Part shown: positions 49,504 to 63,774 of the stretch, piece by piece | Position numbering within the stretch: position 1 is the first letter of the stretch | How the letters are laid out: each line of letters opens with the position of its first letter | Program-made: the position numbers and the translations under genes | Source: an uncultured Clostridia bacterium | GTDB taxonomy: Bacteria > Bacillota > Clostridia > Oscillospirales > Acutalibacteraceae | Reading direction: 5' to 3' | NCBI GenBank assembly: GCA_945983355.1 | Contig: CAMFSU010000013.1 | Span: 1 to 64,000 of the forward strand | DNA length: 64,000 nt | The notes under the pieces: model-generated | Told to the model about the DNA's origin: nothing | What the model saw: the letters and a program-made list of their open reading frames with translations, nothing else | The model's database searches: none

Positions 49504-50577
49504 TTACTTTAACATCTTTAATAATTCCAAATCTTTCTCTCTGCAATTATTTATATCATAACCGCCTTCAATTATTTTGGATGAAGTATCTTCTCTAACT
49601 TTATTTTCAAAAACTGACAAAAGTTTTTCTGCCCAAAATTCATCCGTTTCTTTTAAAGGCACAAACGAAACCTCACCCGTTATATCAACTTCCTTTGAGA
49701 TTTCAGAGCTAACCACACAGTGAAGACCTGCGGCTTGTGCTTCCAATGCAACAATTGGCAAACCTTCAAAAAGAGAGGGGAGAAAGAAAATATCTGACGC
49801 CTGTAAAATTTCGGGAATATCCGTCCTCTTGCCAAGAAACATAACCTTATCCTTAATGCCCAACTGTTCAGCATAACTATGAACATCCTGTTCCATCTCA
49901 CCTGTGCCCACCGAAACAAGAACAGCATTATTTTGTTTTTCTAAAACCGCCTTGAATATATCTAACATTCTAATTGGATTTTTCTGAGGGGATAATCTTC
50001 CGATATGGCATACAACCATTTTTTCGCTTACCCCTAACTCTTCTCGTTTCTTTTGCCTTAATTGCGGGTTGTAAACAAACTTTTTTGCATCGATAGCATT
50101 TGGGATCACTAATGCCTTATTGGCGTTTCCAAACATATATTCAGAAGCAATTTTAGAACACGCAACATATTCTTTTGTAAAAAAACTGAGAAACGGCTTG
50201 CACAAACGGTGCAAACGCACCTTTTGGGTGGAACCGTTATGGCTATGGGTGACAATTTTTCTTCCCATAAGCCACGGTACAAATTCAGTTATTGCCGCCC
50301 CCGCGTCAAGAATATTAAAATATACGGTATCATATTCGGGGTGATTTTTTAATATTTCCCATAATTTTTTCCAATGGGCTAATAATCCCTTGCTTTTTGC
50401 AGGAATATGATAAACCTTGCTGCCCATACTTCCAATAAATTCGCTGTGAGCAATCGTTTTAAAATCAATCACATAGTCAAAAATAATATCCTCTTTTAAC
50501 CGTTGTGCGAGATTAATTACATACGCTTCTATCCCGCCGGGGTTATCGGTCATCCCATATACCAAAACACGTTTCAT
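49504..50577 (-). CDS. glycosyltransferase family 4
   Basis: GMTDNPGGIEAYVINLAQRL, CHIGRLSPQKNPIRMLDIF, FLPSLFEGLPIVALEAQAAGL. Confidence 0.92.
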   Translation of the reverse strand: MKRVLVYGMTDNPGGIEAYVINLAQRLKEDIIFDYVIDFKTIAHSEFIGSMGSKVYHIPAKSKGLLAHWKKLWEILKNHPEYDTVYFNILDAGAAITEFVPWLMGRKIVTHSHNGSTQKVRLHRLCKPFLSFFTKEYVACSKIASEYMFGNANKALVIPNAIDAKKFVYNPQLRQKKREELGVSEKMVVCHIGRLSPQKNPIRMLDIFKAVLEKQNNAVLVSVGTGEMEQDVHSYAEQLGIKDKVMFLGKRTDIPEILQASDIFFLPSLFEGLPIVALEAQAAGLHCVVSSEISKEVDITGEVSFVPLKETDEFWAEKLLSVFENKVREDTSSKIIEGGYDINNCREKDLELLKMLK

Positions 50578-50606
50578 TTGACACCTCGAAAAAACGGCTT
50601 TAAAAT

Positions 50607-51665
50607 TTATTTCATTTTATCAAAAAGTTTGCTGTTTCTTGAAAAACATATAACCTTTGCAAAAAGAAAACACAGCCACACACTATTGGTTTTTAAAATA
50701 ATATTCATTATTTTTTGCGCCTTTGAACCACCTTGAGCCAATGCAATTGCTTCTTTTGTTATAGAATCCTCAAGGGTGGCCTTTATATCGCAGCGAATAT
50801 CCTTTCCTTTTAAACCTGAATATCTTGAACAATTATTTGAAAAATGGCTAAATATGTGCTTAATATGTGTGTTAGCCGCATTTGCAGCAATCTCGCCATG
50901 ATAAACCTGTCGGCTTTTTAGAATATTTTGCATAGCTAGGTATCGGTCGGTTATAAGTTTGTAAAAATTCTTTATATACGGCTGATTAGTTAATGTTTCA
51001 CGCGGCGATTTAACATAATGATAAATTGGCTTATCTATTACAGACAAAGAATTAACATGGTAAAATAGGTCTATATAGAAAAAATAATCCTCGCTATGCA
51101 TACGTTTAGAAAAAACTATATCATTTTCTAAAATTAAGTCTCTTTTTATTGCTTTGTTACAAGCGAAAGAAAAAACTTTATTTTGATCTAACGCGGAAAC
51201 TTTTGAAACTATAAACTTATTATCAGTTAAAAGTTGGCTTTTGGGGACAACCGTAACCGTATGGTCAATTTTAGTTTCACTGGTGTAAAAGTCCTGAAAA
51301 TATCCAAAAAGAATCACATCTGCCATTGTGTTTTCAGCATTGCTTATTAAAATTTCAATGGCGTTAGGTTCTAAATAGTCGTCAGCATCGACAAACAAAA
51401 TATAATTACCCGATGCGCATTTTATCCCGTTATTTCTGGCTTCTCCCGGACCGGCATTCTCTTGCGAAAGAACTTTATACTTAAAAGTTGCTTGTTGTAA
51501 CTTTAAATTAAGTTTTTCAAGCGTGTTATCCTTAGAACCGTCGTTTACAAATATTACTTCAAAACTCTTTACTGTTTGCTTATTTAAATTGTCGACCGCT
51601 TGATTAACTAAATCTTCACAATTATATACCGGCATGATAACGCTGAAAAATGGTGTTTTGTTCAT
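50607..51665 (-). CDS. glycosyltransferase family 2
   Basis: FSVIMPVYNCEDLVNQAVDNL, VNDGSKDNT, NYILFVDADDYLEP. Confidence 0.92.
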   Translation of the reverse strand: MNKTPFFSVIMPVYNCEDLVNQAVDNLNKQTVKSFEVIFVNDGSKDNTLEKLNLKLQQATFKYKVLSQENAGPGEARNNGIKCASGNYILFVDADDYLEPNAIEILISNAENTMADVILFGYFQDFYTSETKIDHTVTVVPKSQLLTDNKFIVSKVSALDQNKVFSFACNKAIKRDLILENDIVFSKRMHSEDYFFYIDLFYHVNSLSVIDKPIYHYVKSPRETLTNQPYIKNFYKLITDRYLAMQNILKSRQVYHGEIAANAANTHIKHIFSHFSNNCSRYSGLKGKDIRCDIKATLEDSITKEAIALAQGGSKAQKIMNIILKTNSVWLCFLFAKVICFSRNSKLFDKMK

Positions 51666-51666
51666 T

Positions 51667-52731
51667 TTATCTTCCTGCCTTTAATTTAGCAAAGAGCTTT
51701 GTGTTTGATGATTTTACCTTTGAAATAACACAGCTCATCATATACATAAGGCAAACGCTTTTCCATTTTATTGGCAAAAGAAGCACCTTCATATAAAGCG
51801 AGCCAGGCTTTGCAAGTTTAACCGCCCTTTGTGCAGTTTCAGAGCATATCATGTTCTTGATTTGTGCTTTCTTTTCATTAGTTGGCAGGTCGCAATTTTT
51901 GTTGGTAACATTTTCAACACAGCCGATAATTCTTTCAATATATCTTCTTGAAATAAATTCATCAATTTCGCCGTTCATAATGCCCCAATGAGCATAAAGG
52001 TCACGCATCCAACCGTTTTCTTCTTCGCGCTTATCAAACATATCGCTTCTGTAACGTGCAGTTTCGCTTTCGGCACGCTTTCTTATGAAGTGATAATACT
52101 TATTATCGGTAACGGCAACCCTTTCAATATCTCTTACAACACTTAAATTAAAGGGGAAATCATCCCAAAAGGTATTTGGGAAATAAAGCTTATTTTCCTT
52201 TATATATTCAGAAGAGAAAAGCTTGTTCCAAGGTGTATAAAGAAGATTTTTATCAAAAAGCTTGTGTGCATTTTCTCTAAATTCTTTTTGGGTTTTGTAA
52301 ACGACCGACGGCACAACCTGTTCTTGAGTAAACTTTTCCTCATCGGTATAGTAAGTATCAATATAATAACCTGCCACAACAAGCTGGCGGTCATTTTGTT
52401 GGGCTATGTTATACATATCTTCAAGCATAGTCGGCTCTGCCCAGTCATCAGAATCCATAAAATACATATACTCGCCAACCGCCAAATCAATAGCAACATT
52501 TCGGGCTGCGGGTGCGCCTGCATTTTCCTGGTGAATAACCTTAATGCGAGAATCATTTTTAGCGTATTCGTCACAAATTGCGCCGCTGTTATCGGGAGAG
52601 CCGTCATCCACTGCAAAAAGCTCCCACTCGCTAAGGGTTTGCGCCTGAATACTTTCAATCGCCTTACCTACATAATCTTCAACCCTGTACACAGGCATTA
52701 TTACACTGATTTTTACATTATTTTCCGGCAT
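51667..52731 (-). CDS. glycosyltransferase family 2
   Basis: ISVIMPVYRVEDYVGKAIESI, DDGSPDNSG, YMYFMDSDDWAEP; probable start MPENNVK. Confidence 0.92.
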   Translation of the reverse strand: MPENNVKISVIMPVYRVEDYVGKAIESIQAQTLSEWELFAVDDGSPDNSGAICDEYAKNDSRIKVIHQENAGAPAARNVAIDLAVGEYMYFMDSDDWAEPTMLEDMYNIAQQNDRQLVVAGYYIDTYYTDEEKFTQEQVVPSVVYKTQKEFRENAHKLFDKNLLYTPWNKLFSSEYIKENKLYFPNTFWDDFPFNLSVVRDIERVAVTDNKYYHFIRKRAESETARYRSDMFDKREEENGWMRDLYAHWGIMNGEIDEFISRRYIERIIGCVENVTNKNCDLPTNEKKAQIKNMICSETAQRAVKLAKPGSLYMKVLLLPIKWKSVCLMYMMSCVISKVKSSNTKLFAKLKAGR

Positions 52732-52732
52732 T

Positions 52733-53845
52733 TTAATTCTCCTCTTTAAAGCTCTTCTCAATAAGTGAAAAGGCCGATTCTATAACCTTGTCCATATCGT
52801 AATATTTATATTCCGCAAGTCTGCCGCCGAAAATTACATTTTTTTGTTCTTTCGCAAGCTCGGCGTACTTTTTATAAACCAACTGATTTTTTTCATCGTT
52901 TACGGGGTAATACGGCTCCATCCCCTCCTGCCAATCAGCAGGATATTCACGGGTGATAACAGTCTTTTCCTGTGTGCCGTATTCAAAATGCTTATGCTCG
53001 ATAACACGGGTATAGGGTGTTTCCCTGTCGGTGTAATTAACCACCGCAACGCCCTGATAATTTTCTTCGTTTAAAATTTCCGACTCGAATTTAAGACTTC
53101 TGTACTCAAGCTTTCCGAATTTATAATCAAAAAAAGAATCAAGCGTGCCGGTATAGAGAATCTTTTCACCAAGCGCATTATATTTTTCACGGTTTTGGTT
53201 ATAGTCGGTGTTAAGCTCGACATCGCATCCTTCAAAAAGGGCGTTTATGAGAAGATTATATCCACCTATCGGAATGCCTTGATAAAGGTCGTTAAAATAA
53301 TTGTTATCATAGGTGTATCTGACAGGAAGTCTTTTAATTATAAAAGCAGGAAGCTCTTTGCAATCTCTGCCCCATTGCTTTTCGGTATACCCTTTAACAA
53401 GCTTTTTGTAAATATCCTCACCAACTAAGCTTATTGCCTGTTCCTCTAAATTTTGGGGCTCGCCTTTAATTTTAGCTGTTTGCTCGGCAATTTTGGCTTT
53501 TGCCTCGGCAGGTGTTCTGACATCGCTCCACATTTTTGAAAAGGTATTCATATTAAAGGGCATATTGTAAATTTCACCCTTATAATTTGCTATTGGAGAG
53601 TTGGTATAACGGTTAAATTCCACCAAGGAATTGACAAAATCCCACACCTTACGATTGCTTGTATGGAAAATATGCGCACCGTATTTATGCACATTTATGC
53701 CTTCAATATTTTCACAATAAATATTACCGCCCAAGTGGTTTCTTTTTTCAATTACAAGGCACTTTTTACCCTGCTTCACAGCAGCGTGGGCAAAGGTTCC
53801 CGCAAAAAGTCCACCGCCAACAATAACATAGTCATACTTTCGCAT
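52733..53845 (-). CDS. glf: UDP-galactopyranose mutase
   Basis: YDYVIVGGGLFAGTFAHAA, HKYGAHIFHTSNRKVWDFV, GYTEKQWGRD; probable start MRKYDY. Confidence 0.95.
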   Translation of the reverse strand: MRKYDYVIVGGGLFAGTFAHAAVKQGKKCLVIEKRNHLGGNIYCENIEGINVHKYGAHIFHTSNRKVWDFVNSLVEFNRYTNSPIANYKGEIYNMPFNMNTFSKMWSDVRTPAEAKAKIAEQTAKIKGEPQNLEEQAISLVGEDIYKKLVKGYTEKQWGRDCKELPAFIIKRLPVRYTYDNNYFNDLYQGIPIGGYNLLINALFEGCDVELNTDYNQNREKYNALGEKILYTGTLDSFFDYKFGKLEYRSLKFESEILNEENYQGVAVVNYTDRETPYTRVIEHKHFEYGTQEKTVITREYPADWQEGMEPYYPVNDEKNQLVYKKYAELAKEQKNVIFGGRLAEYKYYDMDKVIESAFSLIEKSFKEEN

Positions 53846-54012
53846 AAAATCTTCTCCTATAATTATTCGCACAATACAGTTATTCGTTATATAGTATACC
53901 ATTTGTAATTATTAATTTCAAGTATTATATATTATTACATTATATGCCCCGCAAAATTCACACTAATAGCTTGCCGTGTCTAATACGGTTAAAATATAAC
54001 TGTTATTGAAAC

Positions 54013-54054: not shown

Positions 54055-54172
54055 GGCTGGGGAATAGGGATTATTCAGGTGCGACGCGCCTTCCGCCTCG
54101 CTTACGCTCGTTGCCGCGCCTACCCAACAGTCCACTAGACTGTTGGGCTTAACGGCTTGTTCGAATCCCCTT
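54053..54172. other. structured, tRNA-like-ended segment at the edge of the integrated element (candidate attachment region)
   Basis: tggctggggaatagggatt ... perfect hairpin CCCAACAGTCcactaGACTGTTGGG ... GTTCGAATCCCC, immediately beside the recombinase gene. Confidence 0.4.
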
Positions 54173-55703
54173 ATTTTTTATTAAAAACAAAAACCAACCA
54201 TAAAGGTCGGTTTTTCGTTTCTGGTGGAGCAAGATTGCTCAAATCCGAACCCTGCCCCGAAGAGATACGAAAAGTGTTGGTCTTGTTCGATGTGAGGTTA
54301 TAGATAGAGGTTATCTTGAACCACCCATCGGGTTCATCCCACACAGTAACGGAGTTTACGAGCAGGTCGATAATGTGCCTACGGAAGTTCTCATCCTCGA
54401 TGTCTCCGTTGCAGAACTCAGTCAACCACCATATAATATGTTCCTTTTCTAAAACAATAATATCATCCTGTGCAACAACGAGTCGCTTTTCGGTGGCTCG
54501 TTTTTGTTTTTCTAATTCTATCAGACGAGCGGTGAGTGCATCGGAATCTGCACCTTTCTCTACCATCTTGATAAGGTTGGCGATGCTTTTCTCGATTTCT
54601 CGAAGTTCTTGCGTGAGTGCCGGAACAAGGCTCTCATTCTCAATGTCGATTCTGTTCTGTCTCACGGCGGCTTCTGCGAGTTCCTCAATGACTTCGGGCG
54701 TGAGGATTGTTAAAGCATCTTCGACCACGGCTCTCTCAATGAAATCTTTCTTCAAAGGTGTTTTATCACAGGAACGAAATCTCTTCCTTGTGGAGCAAGT
54801 GTAGTAGTTGTACTTTGCTCCTGTATGGCTCGTTCCACTCTCACCTGTCATAGAAGCCCCACAATGACCGCAGAAGAGCTTTTGTGCTAAGAGGTAATCT
54901 ACCTTAGCCTTTCCCCTCGCAGGGGCTTGTGCGTTGACTGAGAGCCGTTTCTGCACAATCTCGAATGTCTCTTTATCTACGATGGCAGGAACGCCGCCCT
55001 CGATACGCATATCCTTATATTTATAGATGCCGATGTACCGCTCATTCTTGAACATCGACTTGAAACTGTTCTTGTTAAAATCTACGCCCTTTGCGGTCTT
55101 GTACCCTTTGTTATTAAACTTCTCGCATATCTCGGCAACTGTGGCACCGTTGGCGTAGAGGTCAAATGCTTCTCTTACAATGACTGCTGCCGCTTCATCG
55201 ATGACGAGTTTCTTATCCTCGATGCGATAACCCAACGGGATATGACCGCCGATACTATGGCATTTATGAGCAGACTCATACATACCTCTCGTAATCTTTT
55301 GGGACAGTTCCTTAGAGTAGAACTCAGCCATACCTTCGAGAACTGCTTCGAGAATTACGCCCTCCGGGTTATCCGATATGTTCTCCGTGGCAGAGATGAC
55401 CCGAACGCCATTCTTTTTGAGTCTCGCCTTGTAGGTGGCAGAATCGTATCTGTTTCGAGCGAACCTGTCGAGCTTGTAAACCACGACCGCTTCCCACAAC
55501 TGCTTCTCGCTATCCTTTATCATCTTTTGGAACTGAGTACGCTTGTCGGTGTCCTTGAACGCCGATGTAGCCCTGTCGATATACTGCTCGACAACATTGT
55601 AGCCCTCTCGTTTACAGAACTCCATACAGACTCTACGCTGACCCTCTATGGACTGTTCTGTCTGCCGGTCGCTACTATACCTCATATATAAACAAACATC
55701 CAT
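54171..55703 (-). CDS. large serine recombinase / site-specific integrase
   Basis: YMRYSSDRQTEQSIEGQRRVCMEFC, YKLDRFARNRYDSATYK, zinc ribbon CGHCGASMTGESG...CSTRKRFRSCDKT; 510 aa. Confidence 0.95.
   Translation of the reverse strand: MDVCLYMRYSSDRQTEQSIEGQRRVCMEFCKREGYNVVEQYIDRATSAFKDTDKRTQFQKMIKDSEKQLWEAVVVYKLDRFARNRYDSATYKARLKKNGVRVISATENISDNPEGVILEAVLEGMAEFYSKELSQKITRGMYESAHKCHSIGGHIPLGYRIEDKKLVIDEAAAVIVREAFDLYANGATVAEICEKFNNKGYKTAKGVDFNKNSFKSMFKNERYIGIYKYKDMRIEGGVPAIVDKETFEIVQKRLSVNAQAPARGKAKVDYLLAQKLFCGHCGASMTGESGTSHTGAKYNYYTCSTRKRFRSCDKTPLKKDFIERAVVEDALTILTPEVIEELAEAAVRQNRIDIENESLVPALTQELREIEKSIANLIKMVEKGADSDALTARLIELEKQKRATEKRLVVAQDDIIVLEKEHIIWWLTEFCNGDIEDENFRRHIIDLLVNSVTVWDEPDGWFKITSIYNLTSNKTNTFRISSGQGSDLSNLAPPETKNRPLWLVFVFNKK
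54189..54215 (-). terminator. intrinsic terminator overlapping the 3' end of the recombinase CDS
   Basis: Minus strand AAAAACCGACCtttatGGTTGGTTTTT. Confidence 0.6.
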
Positions 55704-55772: not shown

Positions 55773-56183
55773 TCAGCCAACAGAAGCCGTATTCTCTCCT
55801 GTATTCTTTTTTTCTATGGTATCACGGATATTGAGGATGTTCTGAATCATCAACAATCTACCTTCTTCTGTCGTTGCTCTAAAAACGCTGAGGAGGGCTT
55901 TTTCTTGTTCGGAGAGATTGGAATACCTTTCTCTTTCGATAGTATCGTGGCTCTCGTTGACTATGTTCAAAGCTCGTTTCATAAGGTCATCGTTACCCAA
56001 AAGGTAATCGGTCGATACACCAAAGTATTGTGCTAACTTAACGAGAGTTTTGCCATCGGGTGCAGAATCCTTATCCTCCCAATATTTCTGTTGATTCTTT
56101 CCGATAGAAAGCTCCTTACTTACCTGCTGCCAATTAACACCTTTGGCTGAGAGAAGTCCTTTAAGTCTTGCTGAAAACACCAT
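55773..56183 (-). CDS. HTH XRE/cI-like transcriptional repressor
   Basis: RLKGLLSAKGVNWQQVSKELSIGKNQQKYWEDKDSAPDGKTLVKLAQYFGVSTDYLLGNDD; start MVFSARL with ggaggt RBS. Confidence 0.88.
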   Translation of the reverse strand: MVFSARLKGLLSAKGVNWQQVSKELSIGKNQQKYWEDKDSAPDGKTLVKLAQYFGVSTDYLLGNDDLMKRALNIVNESHDTIERERYSNLSEQEKALLSVFRATTEEGRLLMIQNILNIRDTIEKKNTGENTASVG

Positions 56184-56193
56184 AATGATACCT

Positions 56194-56281
56194 CCAAATC
56201 CCGAAGTTCGGGAAAATTTCAAAAATAAATCCCTAAATTTTATAAAAAACTCTTGACAATCCCTAAATTGGGGATTATAAT
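56194..56281 (+). promoter_or_regulatory. divergent control region: TTGACA-N17-TATAAT promoter with three operator-like dyads
   Basis: AAATCCCGAAGTTCGGGAAAATTT, AAATCCCTAAATTTTA, AATCCCTAAATTGGGGATT (last one inside the promoter spacer). Confidence 0.75.
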
Positions 56282-56451
56282 GAGTAATGTAAACAACAAA
56301 TGGCAACACGAAAGGAAGCCCCAGCAGTTACTTTTCTGTCGGAGTTGTCTCCAATGGTCTTATGTATTGTAGCGAATCCATTATACCATTGAATCTCCTT
56401 TTTGTCAACCTTTGTTGTAATACAAATTCAAAAAAGAGAGGAGGTTTCCCA

Positions 56452-58985: not shown

Positions 58986-60370
58986 CAATCGGCAGCACCA
59001 TAGCAGTCAAAGACCCGTCAGTAGAATTGGTGTCTTGGTGCAAAAGCAATCTGATACTTCGGAATCCCGACTACACCAAAAAGGTTCGTATGCACCTGTG
59101 GGTCGGGAATACTCCGAAAGACCTATATCTTTACGAGGTTGACGGAGATACGCTTATCCTTCCATTCGGTACGCTGAGAGAAATACTCCCAATGATTGCC
59201 GGAGCGAAAGTGTATAAGAGTTTCGCAGAACCTCGCAGGGTTGATTACAGTTGCGACATTCCTCTGTATGACTATCAGCAGGTCGCAGTCGATGAAGTAG
59301 TCAAGGAGCATTATGGCATCCTTCAAAGTCCGGCAGGTAGCGGTAAGACCCAAATGGGAATTGCCGTTGCCGCTCGGCTCGGTTGCCGAACCCTATGGCT
59401 CACTCACACGCAGGACCTTCTTACACAGAGTATGAATCGAGCAAAAATGTATATGAACCCTAAGACCATTGGAACGATTACCAACGGTAAGGTGAATATC
59501 GGAAGCGGTATCACCTTTGCGACAGTACAAACGATGTGCCGCTTAGACCTGCCATATTACAAGCACTTTTGGGATGTAATCATCGTTGATGAGTGCCACC
59601 GTTGTGCAGGTACTCCCACGGCAATATCGCAGTTCTCAAAGGTTCTAAGCAACCTCTCGGCTCGTCATAAGTACGGACTGTCTGCTACTGTGCATCGTTC
59701 TGATGGAATGATAAGAGCGACCTACGCTCTACTCGGTAATGTGATTTACACAGTTCCCGATGAAGCCGTTGCTGACAAGATTATGACAGTCGGCATCCGA
59801 CCTACGAGTACAGGTGTGAAGATTTCCCGTGAGTGCCTTAACACGGATGGAACGCTGAATTATACGAAGCTCATTTCTTATCTCTGTGAGAACTCATACC
59901 GAAATAACCTCATCAGTTCTTGGATAGTGTCGGAAGCAGAACACTCGTCTCTCATCCTTTCAGACAGGCTCGAACACCTCGAAGCACTTATGGCTACTCT
60001 CCCACGCTCGATGCGTGAACAAGCCGTAATGATAAGCGGTAAGATGACCTCGAAGAAAGGCAAGGCTGAGCGAGAACAGGCTATCGAGGATATGCGACAG
60101 GGTAAGAAGAAATACCTGTTCGCAACATATTCTCTCGCAAAAGAGGGTTTGGACATTCCTCGATTGGAACGATTGTATCTCACTACGCCACAAAAAGACT
60201 ATGCCGTTATCACGCAGAGCATCGGTCGTATCGCCCGAACCTTTGAGGGTAAGCAAGACCCCGTGTGCTTTGACTTTGTGGATGACATCGGGTATCTCAT
60301 CAAGGCTTATAAGAAGAGATGCACGACCTACAAAAAGAACGGCTGCTATTTCGTAGGAGGTGCAAAATGA
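58964..60370 (+). CDS. superfamily 2 DEAD/DEAH helicase
   Basis: LQSPAGSGKTQMGIAVA Walker A, VIIVDECHRC, GLSATVHRSDG, QSIGRIARTF. Confidence 0.93.
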   Translation: MGEEMQVTIGSTIAVKDPSVELVSWCKSNLILRNPDYTKKVRMHLWVGNTPKDLYLYEVDGDTLILPFGTLREILPMIAGAKVYKSFAEPRRVDYSCDIPLYDYQQVAVDEVVKEHYGILQSPAGSGKTQMGIAVAARLGCRTLWLTHTQDLLTQSMNRAKMYMNPKTIGTITNGKVNIGSGITFATVQTMCRLDLPYYKHFWDVIIVDECHRCAGTPTAISQFSKVLSNLSARHKYGLSATVHRSDGMIRATYALLGNVIYTVPDEAVADKIMTVGIRPTSTGVKISRECLNTDGTLNYTKLISYLCENSYRNNLISSWIVSEAEHSSLILSDRLEHLEALMATLPRSMREQAVMISGKMTSKKGKAEREQAIEDMRQGKKKYLFATYSLAKEGLDIPRLERLYLTTPQKDYAVITQSIGRIARTFEGKQDPVCFDFVDDIGYLIKAYKKRCTTYKKNGCYFVGGAK

Positions 60371-61942
60371 TACGACTTGGAAGTTTGTTTGACGGAGCAG
60401 GTACATTCCCGTTCGCAGGTAAACAGTACGGCGTGAAGCCTGTATGGGCGAGTGAGATTGAACCTTTCCCCGTCAGCGTAACAAGCAAACGATTTCCGAA
60501 GATGAAACACCTCGGAGACATTACCAAAATCAACGGTGCCGACATAGAACCCGTTGACATCATCACCTTTGGTTCACCCTGTCAAGACCTGTCTGTTGCA
60601 GGTAAACGAGCAGGACTCGATGGTGAGAGGTCGGGGTTGTTTATGGAAGCAGTAAGAATCATCAAAGAAATGCGAGGTGAAACCAATGGAGAGTACCCAA
60701 AAATCGCAATATGGGAGAATGTTCCCGGTGCGTTTAGTTCCAATGAGCGAGAAGACTTCCGGGTTGTCCTCGAAGAACTCTGCAAAATTAAAGGAGGTAA
60801 CACCTCTATTCCTCGACCTCCGAAACGGGGGGGGGAGACCTGCTTGGAACGATGCAGGACTTATCTTGGCAGACGAGTTTTCAATCGCTTGGCGAGTCCT
60901 CGATGCTCAATTTTGGGGAGTACCCCAACGCCGTAGAAGAATCTTCCTTGTGGTCGATTTTGGAGGACAATGTGCCGGAGAAATACTCTTTGAGCGAAAA
61001 GGCTTGTCAAGGAGTTTTGCGGAGAGCCGACAGGCGTGGCAAGGATTTACCCATTCTCTTGCGTGTCGCTCTGATGCAAAAGTGTGGGATGCCCGTGGAA
61101 ATGGCGATGGCGAGACTTGTTCCACTATCACAGGAGACCACGAAAACCGAATAACCGATTACACCAACATCCTTGTTACAGGGGTCGATTGCTTCAATCA
61201 GTCTCTTACGGGTGATAAAGCAATGACGATGTGTGCCGCAAATGGAGATTACAACCACTCCCCGTGCGTTGCGATTTACGGCAAAGGTACACGCCCTCAC
61301 AACAAAGACGAAGCACAGGTGTGGGAGGATAAGGACATTGCGAACTGTCTCAACATAAACGATATGAGCGAAGCTCGTGTCAACGAGATAATCGTAATGG
61401 CTACTCAGCAGGGCGGCTCGGAAATAGCCGTTGACCTCTGTCCCACAATTACGGCTTCCGCAGGAATGAGCGGTAATAATCAGCCCGTAATGTTCTATGC
61501 CCTTGACAGAGCATCGTTCAATCAAGGCATCAACGCCCAATACGACATCGGCATCGATGATAGCGGCATCGCCCAAACTCTCGTGGCGAAAGGTCCGGGT
61601 GCGGTGGCTTTCGGAGTACCGCTTGGATTTCGACCCGAAAACACTCGACTATACGAAGAGGTCTCAACGACCATCTGTAACGGCACGAATCCGGGACACC
61701 ATCAAGGAGTCCTCATTCTTGACCGACTCATTACAGAACTTCGCCGCTTAACCCCTATCGAGTGCGGCAGACTTGATGGTATGCCCGATTGGTGGTGCGA
61801 TGACATACCTCACTCTGATAGTGCTGAGTACAAGATGTGGGGTAACGGAATGGCTCTACCTTGTGTGATGTATGTAATGGAAGGGTGTGTCAAGGTACTC
61901 ACTCGCCGTTGGCTCGAAAGCGTTATGGGGGTGGGTGTATGA
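60367..61942 (+). CDS. C5-cytosine DNA methyltransferase, interrupted by a frameshift at a G9 tract (60827-60835)
   Basis: Frame 1: RLGSLFDGAGTFPFAG, FGSPCQDLSVAG, WENVPGAFSSN, SIPRPPKRGG; continues in another frame: RPAWNDAGLILADEFSIAWRVLDAQFWGVPQRRRRIFLVVDF...YKMWGNGMALPC. Confidence 0.9.
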
Positions 61943-63774
61943 TACAGATTTTCGACTGCGAGGTTTTTGCTTACGATTGGTTTTTCGTCTTCAAAGACCT
62001 CGAAATAAAGGAGTACACCGTAGTTCACAACGATAACGAAGCGGTCATTGAGTTTATGAAAATCGACCCTCTGCTTGGCGGTTTCAACAATAAGCACTAC
62101 GACCAATTCATTCTCAAAGCGGTACTCGCAGATGCGACTCCTCAGCAGATAAAGCAGGTCAACGATTACATAATCGAGCAAGACGGGAACGGATGGGAAC
62201 ATCCTCTCGTTCGTGAATGTAAGACCTACTTCGAGCAATTCGATTTATTCGATGATTGCCAAATGGGTCTGTCGCTGAAAGCCATAGAAGCTCATCTCGG
62301 AATGGATATTCGAGAGACAACTGTTGACTTCACTATCGACAGACCGCTCACCGAAGAGGAAATCGAGGAGGTAATCTTTTACTGTAAGCACGATGTCGAT
62401 GCGACAGAGCGGCTCTATTACCTCAGACAAAACTACCTCGATAATAAACTCTTCCTCGGTCGTGCAAAGGGTATAGACGATGGCAGAGCCTTGTATATGA
62501 CAAATGCCAAACTCACGGCAGCATACCTCGATGCTCAAATGAAAGAGCATAACGATGAGCGTGAGTATCAATACCCGACCAACCTGCTACGGCAGTATAT
62601 CCCCGATGATGTATTCGTGTTCTTCGACCGATTACACGACAAGACCATAAGTGATTACGAGGTCTTTTCAAGTAAGTTGAATTTCAACATCGGAGACTGC
62701 CAATGCACAATCGGTTATGGTGGAATCCACGGGGCTATCCCGACATACAGGGAGAAGTCCACGGATAACCGCTCTATCCGAAACAGAGATGTGGCGAGTT
62801 ACTATCCTCACCTTATGACCCTCGATGGTTATTGCTCTCGTAATATGCCGAACCCACAGGTCTATGCAGATATGTTGGAACGCAGAATGAAGGCGAAGAA
62901 ATCGGGAGACAAGGCACTCGCAAACGCTTTGAAGCTCGTAGCCAATACGACCTACGGCGTTATGCTGAACAAGTACAACGATATGTACGACCCTCTTATG
63001 GGTAGGTCGGTATGTATCACGGGGCAGTTGAGACTCTTAGAGTTGGCTAACCACCTCGTTGCCGACTGTCCTACACTCAAAATCGTTCAGTTGAACACCG
63101 ATGGTATTATGGTTTCTCTTGATAACTGCGACCTCGAAACATACGACCAAATATGTCAAGAGTGGCAGGATAGAACGGGCTTCGAGTTGGAAGAAGACTG
63201 CATCTCTGAAATCATCCAAAAGGATGTAAACAACTACATTGAGATTGCCATAGATGGTAGCACAAAGATAAAGGGCGGTCAGTTGGTGCGTGGTATCGCT
63301 CCGGCAGGTGCGTTCAATATCAACAACAATGCGACCATCGTGGCAAAGGCACTACTCGATTATTTTGCAAAAGGAGTCTCGGTTGAAGAGACAATCGAAA
63401 GTTGTAACGACCTACTCTCCTTCCAACTTATCGCAAAAGCATCGAGTAAATATGCGGCGGCGTATCACATTATTGCAGGTGAAAAGGTTCTCGTGCAGAA
63501 GTGCAATCGTGTGTACGCCACAACAGAACGGGAATACGGAACTCTCGTCAAGACCCATTCCGAAAAAGGCAATGATGTGAAAATTGGCGGTCTGCCGGAG
63601 CATTGCCTTATCGACAATAACAATGAGTTGAGTATCGAACGAGTGGATAAGAAGTGGTATATAAAACTCGCTAAGAGGTATATTAACGACTTCCTCGGAA
63701 TCAAACCTCCGAAGAAAAATACTCGTAAGATTAACTCACTCGCAAAACAAGCACTAAAATTATTGGAGGTATAA
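61939..63774 (+). CDS. phage family-B-like DNA polymerase with 3'-5' exonuclease
   Basis: Exo motifs FDCEVFAYD, GFNNKHYDQFIL, YCKHDVDATE; motif A RDVASYYPHLM, motif B ALKLVANTTYGVM, motif C QLNTDGIMV. Confidence 0.82.
   Translation: MIQIFDCEVFAYDWFFVFKDLEIKEYTVVHNDNEAVIEFMKIDPLLGGFNNKHYDQFILKAVLADATPQQIKQVNDYIIEQDGNGWEHPLVRECKTYFEQFDLFDDCQMGLSLKAIEAHLGMDIRETTVDFTIDRPLTEEEIEEVIFYCKHDVDATERLYYLRQNYLDNKLFLGRAKGIDDGRALYMTNAKLTAAYLDAQMKEHNDEREYQYPTNLLRQYIPDDVFVFFDRLHDKTISDYEVFSSKLNFNIGDCQCTIGYGGIHGAIPTYREKSTDNRSIRNRDVASYYPHLMTLDGYCSRNMPNPQVYADMLERRMKAKKSGDKALANALKLVANTTYGVMLNKYNDMYDPLMGRSVCITGQLRLLELANHLVADCPTLKIVQLNTDGIMVSLDNCDLETYDQICQEWQDRTGFELEEDCISEIIQKDVNNYIEIAIDGSTKIKGGQLVRGIAPAGAFNINNNATIVAKALLDYFAKGVSVEETIESCNDLLSFQLIAKASSKYAAAYHIIAGEKVLVQKCNRVYATTEREYGTLVKTHSEKGNDVKIGGLPEHCLIDNNNELSIERVDKKWYIKLAKRYINDFLGIKPPKKNTRKINSLAKQALKLLEV

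Follow-up and report, generated by a model that had tools for sequence, protein, structure and literature searches.

A candidate slipped-strand G tract at the overlap of a phage C5-cytosine methyltransferase gene and a predicted conserved +1-frame gene in an uncultured Clostridia bacterium

In this study, we analyzed a window of 64,000 nucleotides (positions 1 to 64,000 of contig CAMFSU010000013.1 from an uncultured Clostridia bacterium) that carries an integrated element whose C5-cytosine DNA methyltransferase gene is split between two reading frames at a run of nine G. We conclude that this run is probably (at a probability of about 0.74) a hypermutable slipped-strand tract in a phage replication module, situated where the methyltransferase gene overlaps a second predicted gene in the +1 frame, here called Alt. 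The recurrence of the tract, the variation in its length, the constraint on both genes and the ORFs that result are read directly from the sequences compared, and these data support a candidate slipped-strand contingency locus.

In the window, GAAACGGGGGGGGGAGACC holds nine G at 60827-60835 on the plus strand, a putative slippage site that is translated as Gly whichever frame is read. All of motifs I, IV, VI, VIII and IX-X of C5-cytosine DNA methyltransferases were found. The N part of the enzyme (60367-60936, plus strand; PF00145, E 2.7e-30) contains motifs I-VI with the catalytic PCQ; it runs from an ATG at 60367, enters an unrelated frame after the tract and reaches a stop at 60936, giving a product of 189 aa. 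In the C part (60836-61942, plus strand), motif VIII (GVPQRRRR) is followed by the target-recognition region and motifs IX-X; this part stays open up to its stop and at G9 is the continuation of the upstream Alt frame. Each part exceeds the Pfam cut-off for PF00145, although they sit in two frames, and the original prediction that the catalytic half starts at 60367 and that the remainder lies in a different frame was confirmed, the frames parting at the G9. In an alignment to M.HhaI, the N part corresponds to residues 13-136 and the C part to residues 144-169 and 270-315, placing the tract between motifs VI and VIII. The closest relative, IMGVR_UViG_3300031555_010637 (L003; L-numbers are our labels for the homologous loci or contigs compared), is 98% alike at the amino acid level and has G8 with an intact gene of 522 aa, in agreement with the expectation that one G less would rejoin an enzyme of ~525 aa; the ATGA overlap with the polymerase gene that had also been predicted is located at 61939-61942. 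In a structure model of L003, the Gly residues of the tract follow a helix (126-140) and precede a strand (163-167), an area modeled confidently within an otherwise poor model whose methyltransferase C part (pLDDT ~30) is unreliable. The window's G9 is the only run of at least 8 G in the 1.57-Mb assembly, although dinucleotide shuffling leads one to expect ~1 such run in the 64-kb window by itself. The two flanking genes use GGG less than any other Gly codon (5 of 65).

The methyltransferase gene is embedded in phage replication genes. A phage helicase (58964-60370, plus strand; ResIII/Helicase_C, phrog_16) lies directly 5' and overlaps its start, and a phage DNA polymerase (61939-63774, plus strand; phrog_1252, E 6e-148) has a start that overlaps its stop. 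The element also encodes a large serine recombinase as its integrase (54171-55703, minus strand; PF00239, PF07508, PF13408) and a repressor-like HTH protein (55773-56309, minus strand; PF12844, with Phage_CI_repr just under the cut-off). No restriction nuclease family was found among the tested ORFs directly adjoining the methyltransferase, the neighbors being the ResIII-type helicase and the DNA polymerase. Glycosyltransferase and UDP-galactopyranose-mutase-like genes adjoin the element (window positions 49504-53902, minus strand). Elsewhere the host genome encodes MutS and, at G000:C14:36978-43357 (L328:3978-10357), an operon-like cluster on one strand with two intact C5 methyltransferases, an AAA_5 protein (McrB-like, 908 aa) and a McrBC-family protein. 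A further C5 methyltransferase fragment is present at G000:C48:93166-93556; one of the stretches matched there has a TGA within it.

Comparison with homologs revealed that long G runs recur at this site. The interval between motifs VI and VIII was compared in 174 distinct homologous stretches: its longest G run was 2-5 in 147 and 7-11 in 27, with none of length 6, and runs of A, C or T were no longer than 6. The reading frame was assessed in 105 stretches with stricter motif placement, selected blind to their tracts: all 78 homologs without a G7+ run were in frame, whereas 16 of the 27 with such a run were out of frame (Fisher 4e-12). Five loci considered as tract-free out-of-frame homologs (L148, L207, L210, L219 and L221) were motif mismatches that disappeared once a PCQ in the same frame was required. 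A pattern scan for G7+ ahead of codons for DAQ(Y/F)WGVP retrieved 58 viral contigs, and of 65 distinct tract-bearing stretches that were read, 41 were in frame and 24 out of frame at the VI-VIII site. The tract occupies several different positions within the interval, and its presence implies at least 18 changes on a tree that is poorly resolved. In other searches, a pattern specific to the window's tract matched only two already known relatives, a Toutatis-specific tract pattern had no match among viral contigs, a phylum-wide pattern scan found nothing besides the window itself, and no close DNA copy of the locus was present in 99 related genomes searched.

Comparing tract length across related elements, as the original prediction had proposed, revealed variation, in and out of frame, between near-identical phages. 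In three near-clonal groups of contigs, 99.94-99.97% identical over 4.9-10.3 kb, the tract differs by one G and is the only indel: L068/L070 (G8/G7; 4923 bp, 2 mismatches), L267/L262 (G8/G9; 8546 bp, 2 mismatches) and L258/L292 (G8/G9; 10,288 bp, 4 mismatches). L006 (G8) and L007 (G9) have identical flanks. Over a shared 5.3 kb, the Faecalibacterium phages Lelie (G14) and Toutatis (G9) are 98.5% identical and have no internal indel besides the tract, and they are annotated differently there, Toutatis with two methyltransferase genes and Lelie with one ORF that starts inside the methyltransferase gene; methyltransferases go unmentioned in the papers on these two phages. A further pair, L008/L009, was rejected since its tracts are of equal length and differ by internal substitutions. 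These near-identical pairs are related phages, and the comparison for the window's own tract is with L003 only, a diverged relative. In that comparison (G9 versus G8), dS and dN are 0.225 and 0.003 for the N part and 0.37 and 0.009 for the C part, whose dN/dS of 0.024 indicates that it is not drifting; N-half ratios were dropped for the misframed pairs L300/L301, L131 and L073/L258. The postulated slipped-strand type of tract gains support from both the variation between near-identical phages and the preserved downstream half. Neither chance nor simple decay accounts for the G9 frame break in the window.

The tract lies within what we predict to be a second conserved protein-coding gene, Alt, of ~130-150 aa, which spans motifs VI-VIII in the +1 frame. 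In the window, its N part (60686-60835, plus strand; positions 1-53 of profile A1) begins at an ATG at 60686, 8 nt 3' of a Shine-Dalgarno-like GAGG (60674-60677, plus strand), and its conserved C part, a three-helix domain (60836-61154, plus strand), gives a profile match at 60828-61094 (E 8.7e-38). Over the entire VI-VIII region, the +1 frame is open in 65 of 65 tract-free homologs, versus 9 for the +2 frame, and synonymous-codon shuffles matched the observed length in 5% of draws or fewer for 34 genes in +1 and for 6 in +2. An ATG with a Shine-Dalgarno site was found for Alt in 54 of these 65, compared to none in the +2 control frame. In addition, frame-0 dS is four-fold lower inside the overlap (0.33-0.34) than on both flanks (~1.4), being below the flanks in 33/33 and 36/36 pairs, counts that are inflated by pairs sharing sequences and so not being independent. 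Third-position differences fall from ~0.55 to 0.08-0.12 at 70-115 codons past motif VI and first-position differences rise to 0.18-0.42, which is the pattern expected if the +1 frame is constrained. Between the window and L003, third positions changed in 2 of 150 overlap codons, as against 86 of 369 outside.

The predicted Alt product has a variable N part, probably disordered, followed by the three-helix C-terminal domain (model pLDDT >90), and is marked by the motif K-Y-Y-L-S-x-K-A-C-x-G-I-L-R-R-A. Profile searches of Pfam, NCBIfam and PDB sequences found no match, and a fold search against the PDB found none better than E 1.7. Alt is also present under other phage methyltransferase genes: it matches 46 of the 79 members of PHROG 16143, labeled DNA methyltransferase, and occupies the +1 frame of the annotated methyltransferase gene in Vibrio phage CP-T1, Mycobacterium phage Porcelain, Pasteurella phage Pm86, Enterobacter phage CobraSix, Akkermansia phage Chantilly and Providencia phage PSTRCR_117lys, as well as in P1 dmt, where the methyltransferase gene is uninterrupted and the Alt ORF is at the same place, and in Caulobacter DMCA, Pseudanabaena Pan4 and Pseudomonas D14E. 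In the records examined it is not annotated, except as the stand-alone hypothetical gene gp104 of Mycobacterium phage Thibault (L353), in which the methyltransferase is broken around HNH endonuclease genes and the Alt C domain survives as gene 104. Porcelain and Dove have the same Alt core at sites where the methyltransferase frame varies. Of 148 genomes from the host's class, 13 contain Alt, at a constant distance and in +1 relative to the methyltransferase motif wherever the latter was found; in another genome of this class, Alt is split into two parts next to a G8 run (G509:C16:7306-7691; L345, L351). In the window's own genome, Alt occurs at this locus only, as two pieces joined at the tract, and it was not found in the host's other C5 methyltransferases. 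A natural two-ORF arrangement is seen at L269:126-1598, where Alt continues in frame through the recognition region and motifs IX-X for 491 aa.

Since poly-G encodes Gly in every frame, the tract could grow within the linker of both proteins without introducing stops, and the gain or loss of one G would exchange the downstream frames of the methyltransferase and Alt. In the G8 phase, as in L003, both genes are complete. In the +1 phase, which is that of the window's G9 and of most broken relatives, the methyltransferase ends after motif VI (at G9, ~33 residues beyond the tract), and Alt would be deprived of its conserved helical C domain. The same phase, and only this one, opens an ORF of 418 aa (60686-61942, plus strand) that fuses the Alt N part to the methyltransferase C part behind its own ATG and Shine-Dalgarno site; orf49 of phage Lelie is an annotated counterpart. 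The -1 phase, seen in phage Toutatis, joins the methyltransferase N part to the Alt C domain. The original prediction of G8 as ON and G9 as OFF thus holds in that the gene is intact at G8 and broken at G9, but it is incomplete in that G9 also cuts Alt and creates the fusion ORF; with the tract inside the conserved Alt overlap, G9 would be more than an off-switch for the methyltransferase. We infer that switching would be reversible through replication slippage and that G9 phages would be without methyltransferase activity. Potentially, the variation is retained since methylated and unmethylated phage DNA would survive different host defenses, namely type II restriction that is blocked by methylation and restriction that depends on 5mC. 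As 5mC helps against the former and hurts against the latter, progeny of mixed ON and OFF phase would hedge between them; the host's McrBC-like cluster described above fits with this idea.

Many homologs have 2-8 G7+ runs within the methyltransferase gene. In the pattern-selected loci, extra G7+ runs numbered 64 in the gene (58.7 kb) versus 13 elsewhere (284.7 kb; p ~1e-36), and frame maps made from ungapped matches with a permutation test placed 64 of 129 frame switches within 30 nt of a run, where 19 were expected. Close to the end of Alt, 375-425 nt past motif VI, the runs form another cluster. The genes of L140/L276, L250, L255, L277, L249, L256, L270 and L272 have 5-8 separate G7+ runs, nearly all confined to the methyltransferase gene, and their frames change at many of the runs. 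With up to 8 tracts, a whole gene would seldom be in frame, so that a simple on/off switch is insufficient. A more elaborate reading, which we regard as tentative and rather unlikely, is that the tract acts as a frame-crossover switch in which each phase yields a different functional protein pair: the complete methyltransferase with the complete Alt, the fusion of the Alt N part to the recognition domain, or the fusion of the methyltransferase N part to the Alt C domain, with several tracts in some phages shuffling frames through the target-recognition region. As a separate observation, the C part in many homologs (e.g., L073, L169, L191 and L277) ends with a second copy of an N-terminal motif, LFDGIGGFPL...WASEIEEFPIAVTK, as if the gene had undergone a circular permutation.

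Homopolymers are prone to sequencing and assembly error, and the tract lengths given here all come from assembled consensus sequences, the window being one contig of a MAG whose closest relative has G8. It is nonetheless improbable that the real tract is a fixed G8 in an intact gene, as the out-of-frame state of 16 of 27 tract homologs was found in independent assemblies and the G14 of Lelie is from an induced phage sequenced by Illumina, and error leaves unexplained both the recurrence of G7+ at this site and the concentration of the extra runs in the gene when there is five times more flanking DNA. Even less probable is a programmed event, the alternative named in the original prediction, in which transcriptional slippage or ribosomal frameshifting on the G9 would produce a fixed ratio of products. 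G runs are able to slip in transcription and two overlapping frames would give defined fusion products, but a programmed site is expected to have one phase and no such single fixed phase was seen among the relatives; close relatives occupy all three (e.g., L006 G8 and L007 G9, L068 G8 and L070 G7), and most homologs provide Alt with a separate ATG and Shine-Dalgarno site.

Two other explanations are somewhat less improbable, though still unlikely. The tract may be a hot spot of neutral mutation, where the GGG codons of a Gly-rich linker slip without advantage in a gene heading for loss, consistent with the location of tracts at Gly-rich loops, with the appearance of genes with 3-8 tracts as frame-shredded and with the decay of some tract-bearing alleles, such as L083, a relative of the window lineage with G9 in which the recognition half and the Alt core are gone just past motif VIII (L083:3001-3700). 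Set against neutrality are the strong purifying selection that, in the window lineage, acts to either side of the tract and on Alt, the persistence of tracts over dS ~0.3-0.7 between relatives, and the share of Gly-Gly pairs lying within G7+ runs, 104/683 in in-frame methyltransferase alleles versus 8/334 in the other ORFs of the loci. Alternatively, the +1 phase may itself work, either as a two-subunit enzyme of the methyltransferase N part with the Alt-N/methyltransferase-C fusion or by making a regulatory fusion protein. Out-of-frame alleles do favor +1 over -1 (14 versus 2 in the unselected set; 10 versus 2 families, p 0.04), the fusion ORF has a start and Shine-Dalgarno site, and in L269 Alt is in frame with the recognition region and motifs IX-X. 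C5 methyltransferases of two polypeptides also exist, as in M.AquI and M.EcoHK31I, whose second polypeptide is encoded in a different frame, inside the gene or overlapping it, and carries methyltransferase motifs; Alt would likewise be a polypeptide of another frame, but is without such motifs. However, the N part in the +1 phase stops at motif VI, short of the QRRRR motif, and the excess of +1 may reflect either selection or a bias of slippage, which could favor gain or be weak in runs below 7.

A slipped-strand contingency tract, the reading that we prefer, has partial precedents. Bacterial phasevarions are governed by phase-variable type I or III restriction-modification methyltransferases (PMC12707154, PMC13076061); they too have a simple repeat inside a methyltransferase coding frame, with ON/OFF expression expected, whereas the enzyme here is a phage-borne orphan C5 methyltransferase with no restriction partner found adjoining it. 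In group B Streptococcus, a prophage Dcm (PF00145) has in some strains a frameshift with a stop after 165 aa (PMC10746215). That gene is likewise a prophage C5-cytosine methyltransferase and, by its description, is shifted at about the same place; no homopolymer was reported and its reversibility was called unknown by the authors (PMC10746215). In Campylobacter phages, polyG phase variation affects receptor-binding proteins (Sorensen et al. 2021, as cited in PMC11868660). As far as that citing account describes it, the likeness is a hypermutable polyG within a phage gene as a source of phage diversity, and the difference is that the gene there is for a tail receptor-binding protein, whereas here a replication-module DNA methyltransferase and an overlapping gene are concerned, as judged from sequence alone.

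To our knowledge, phages have seldom been considered as carriers of phase-variable methylation. The signature of the tract recurs in phages of gut Firmicutes, one of which was induced and sequenced, and a methyltransferase that is present in some members of a phage population and absent from others could serve as a hedge against opposing host defenses and could alter host gene expression in lysogens. Alt is the more general surprise, as its +1 signal lies under methyltransferase genes of phages that range from P1 to those of Vibrio, Mycobacterium, Caulobacter, cyanobacteria and the gut, and a single slippery tract could control both proteins together.
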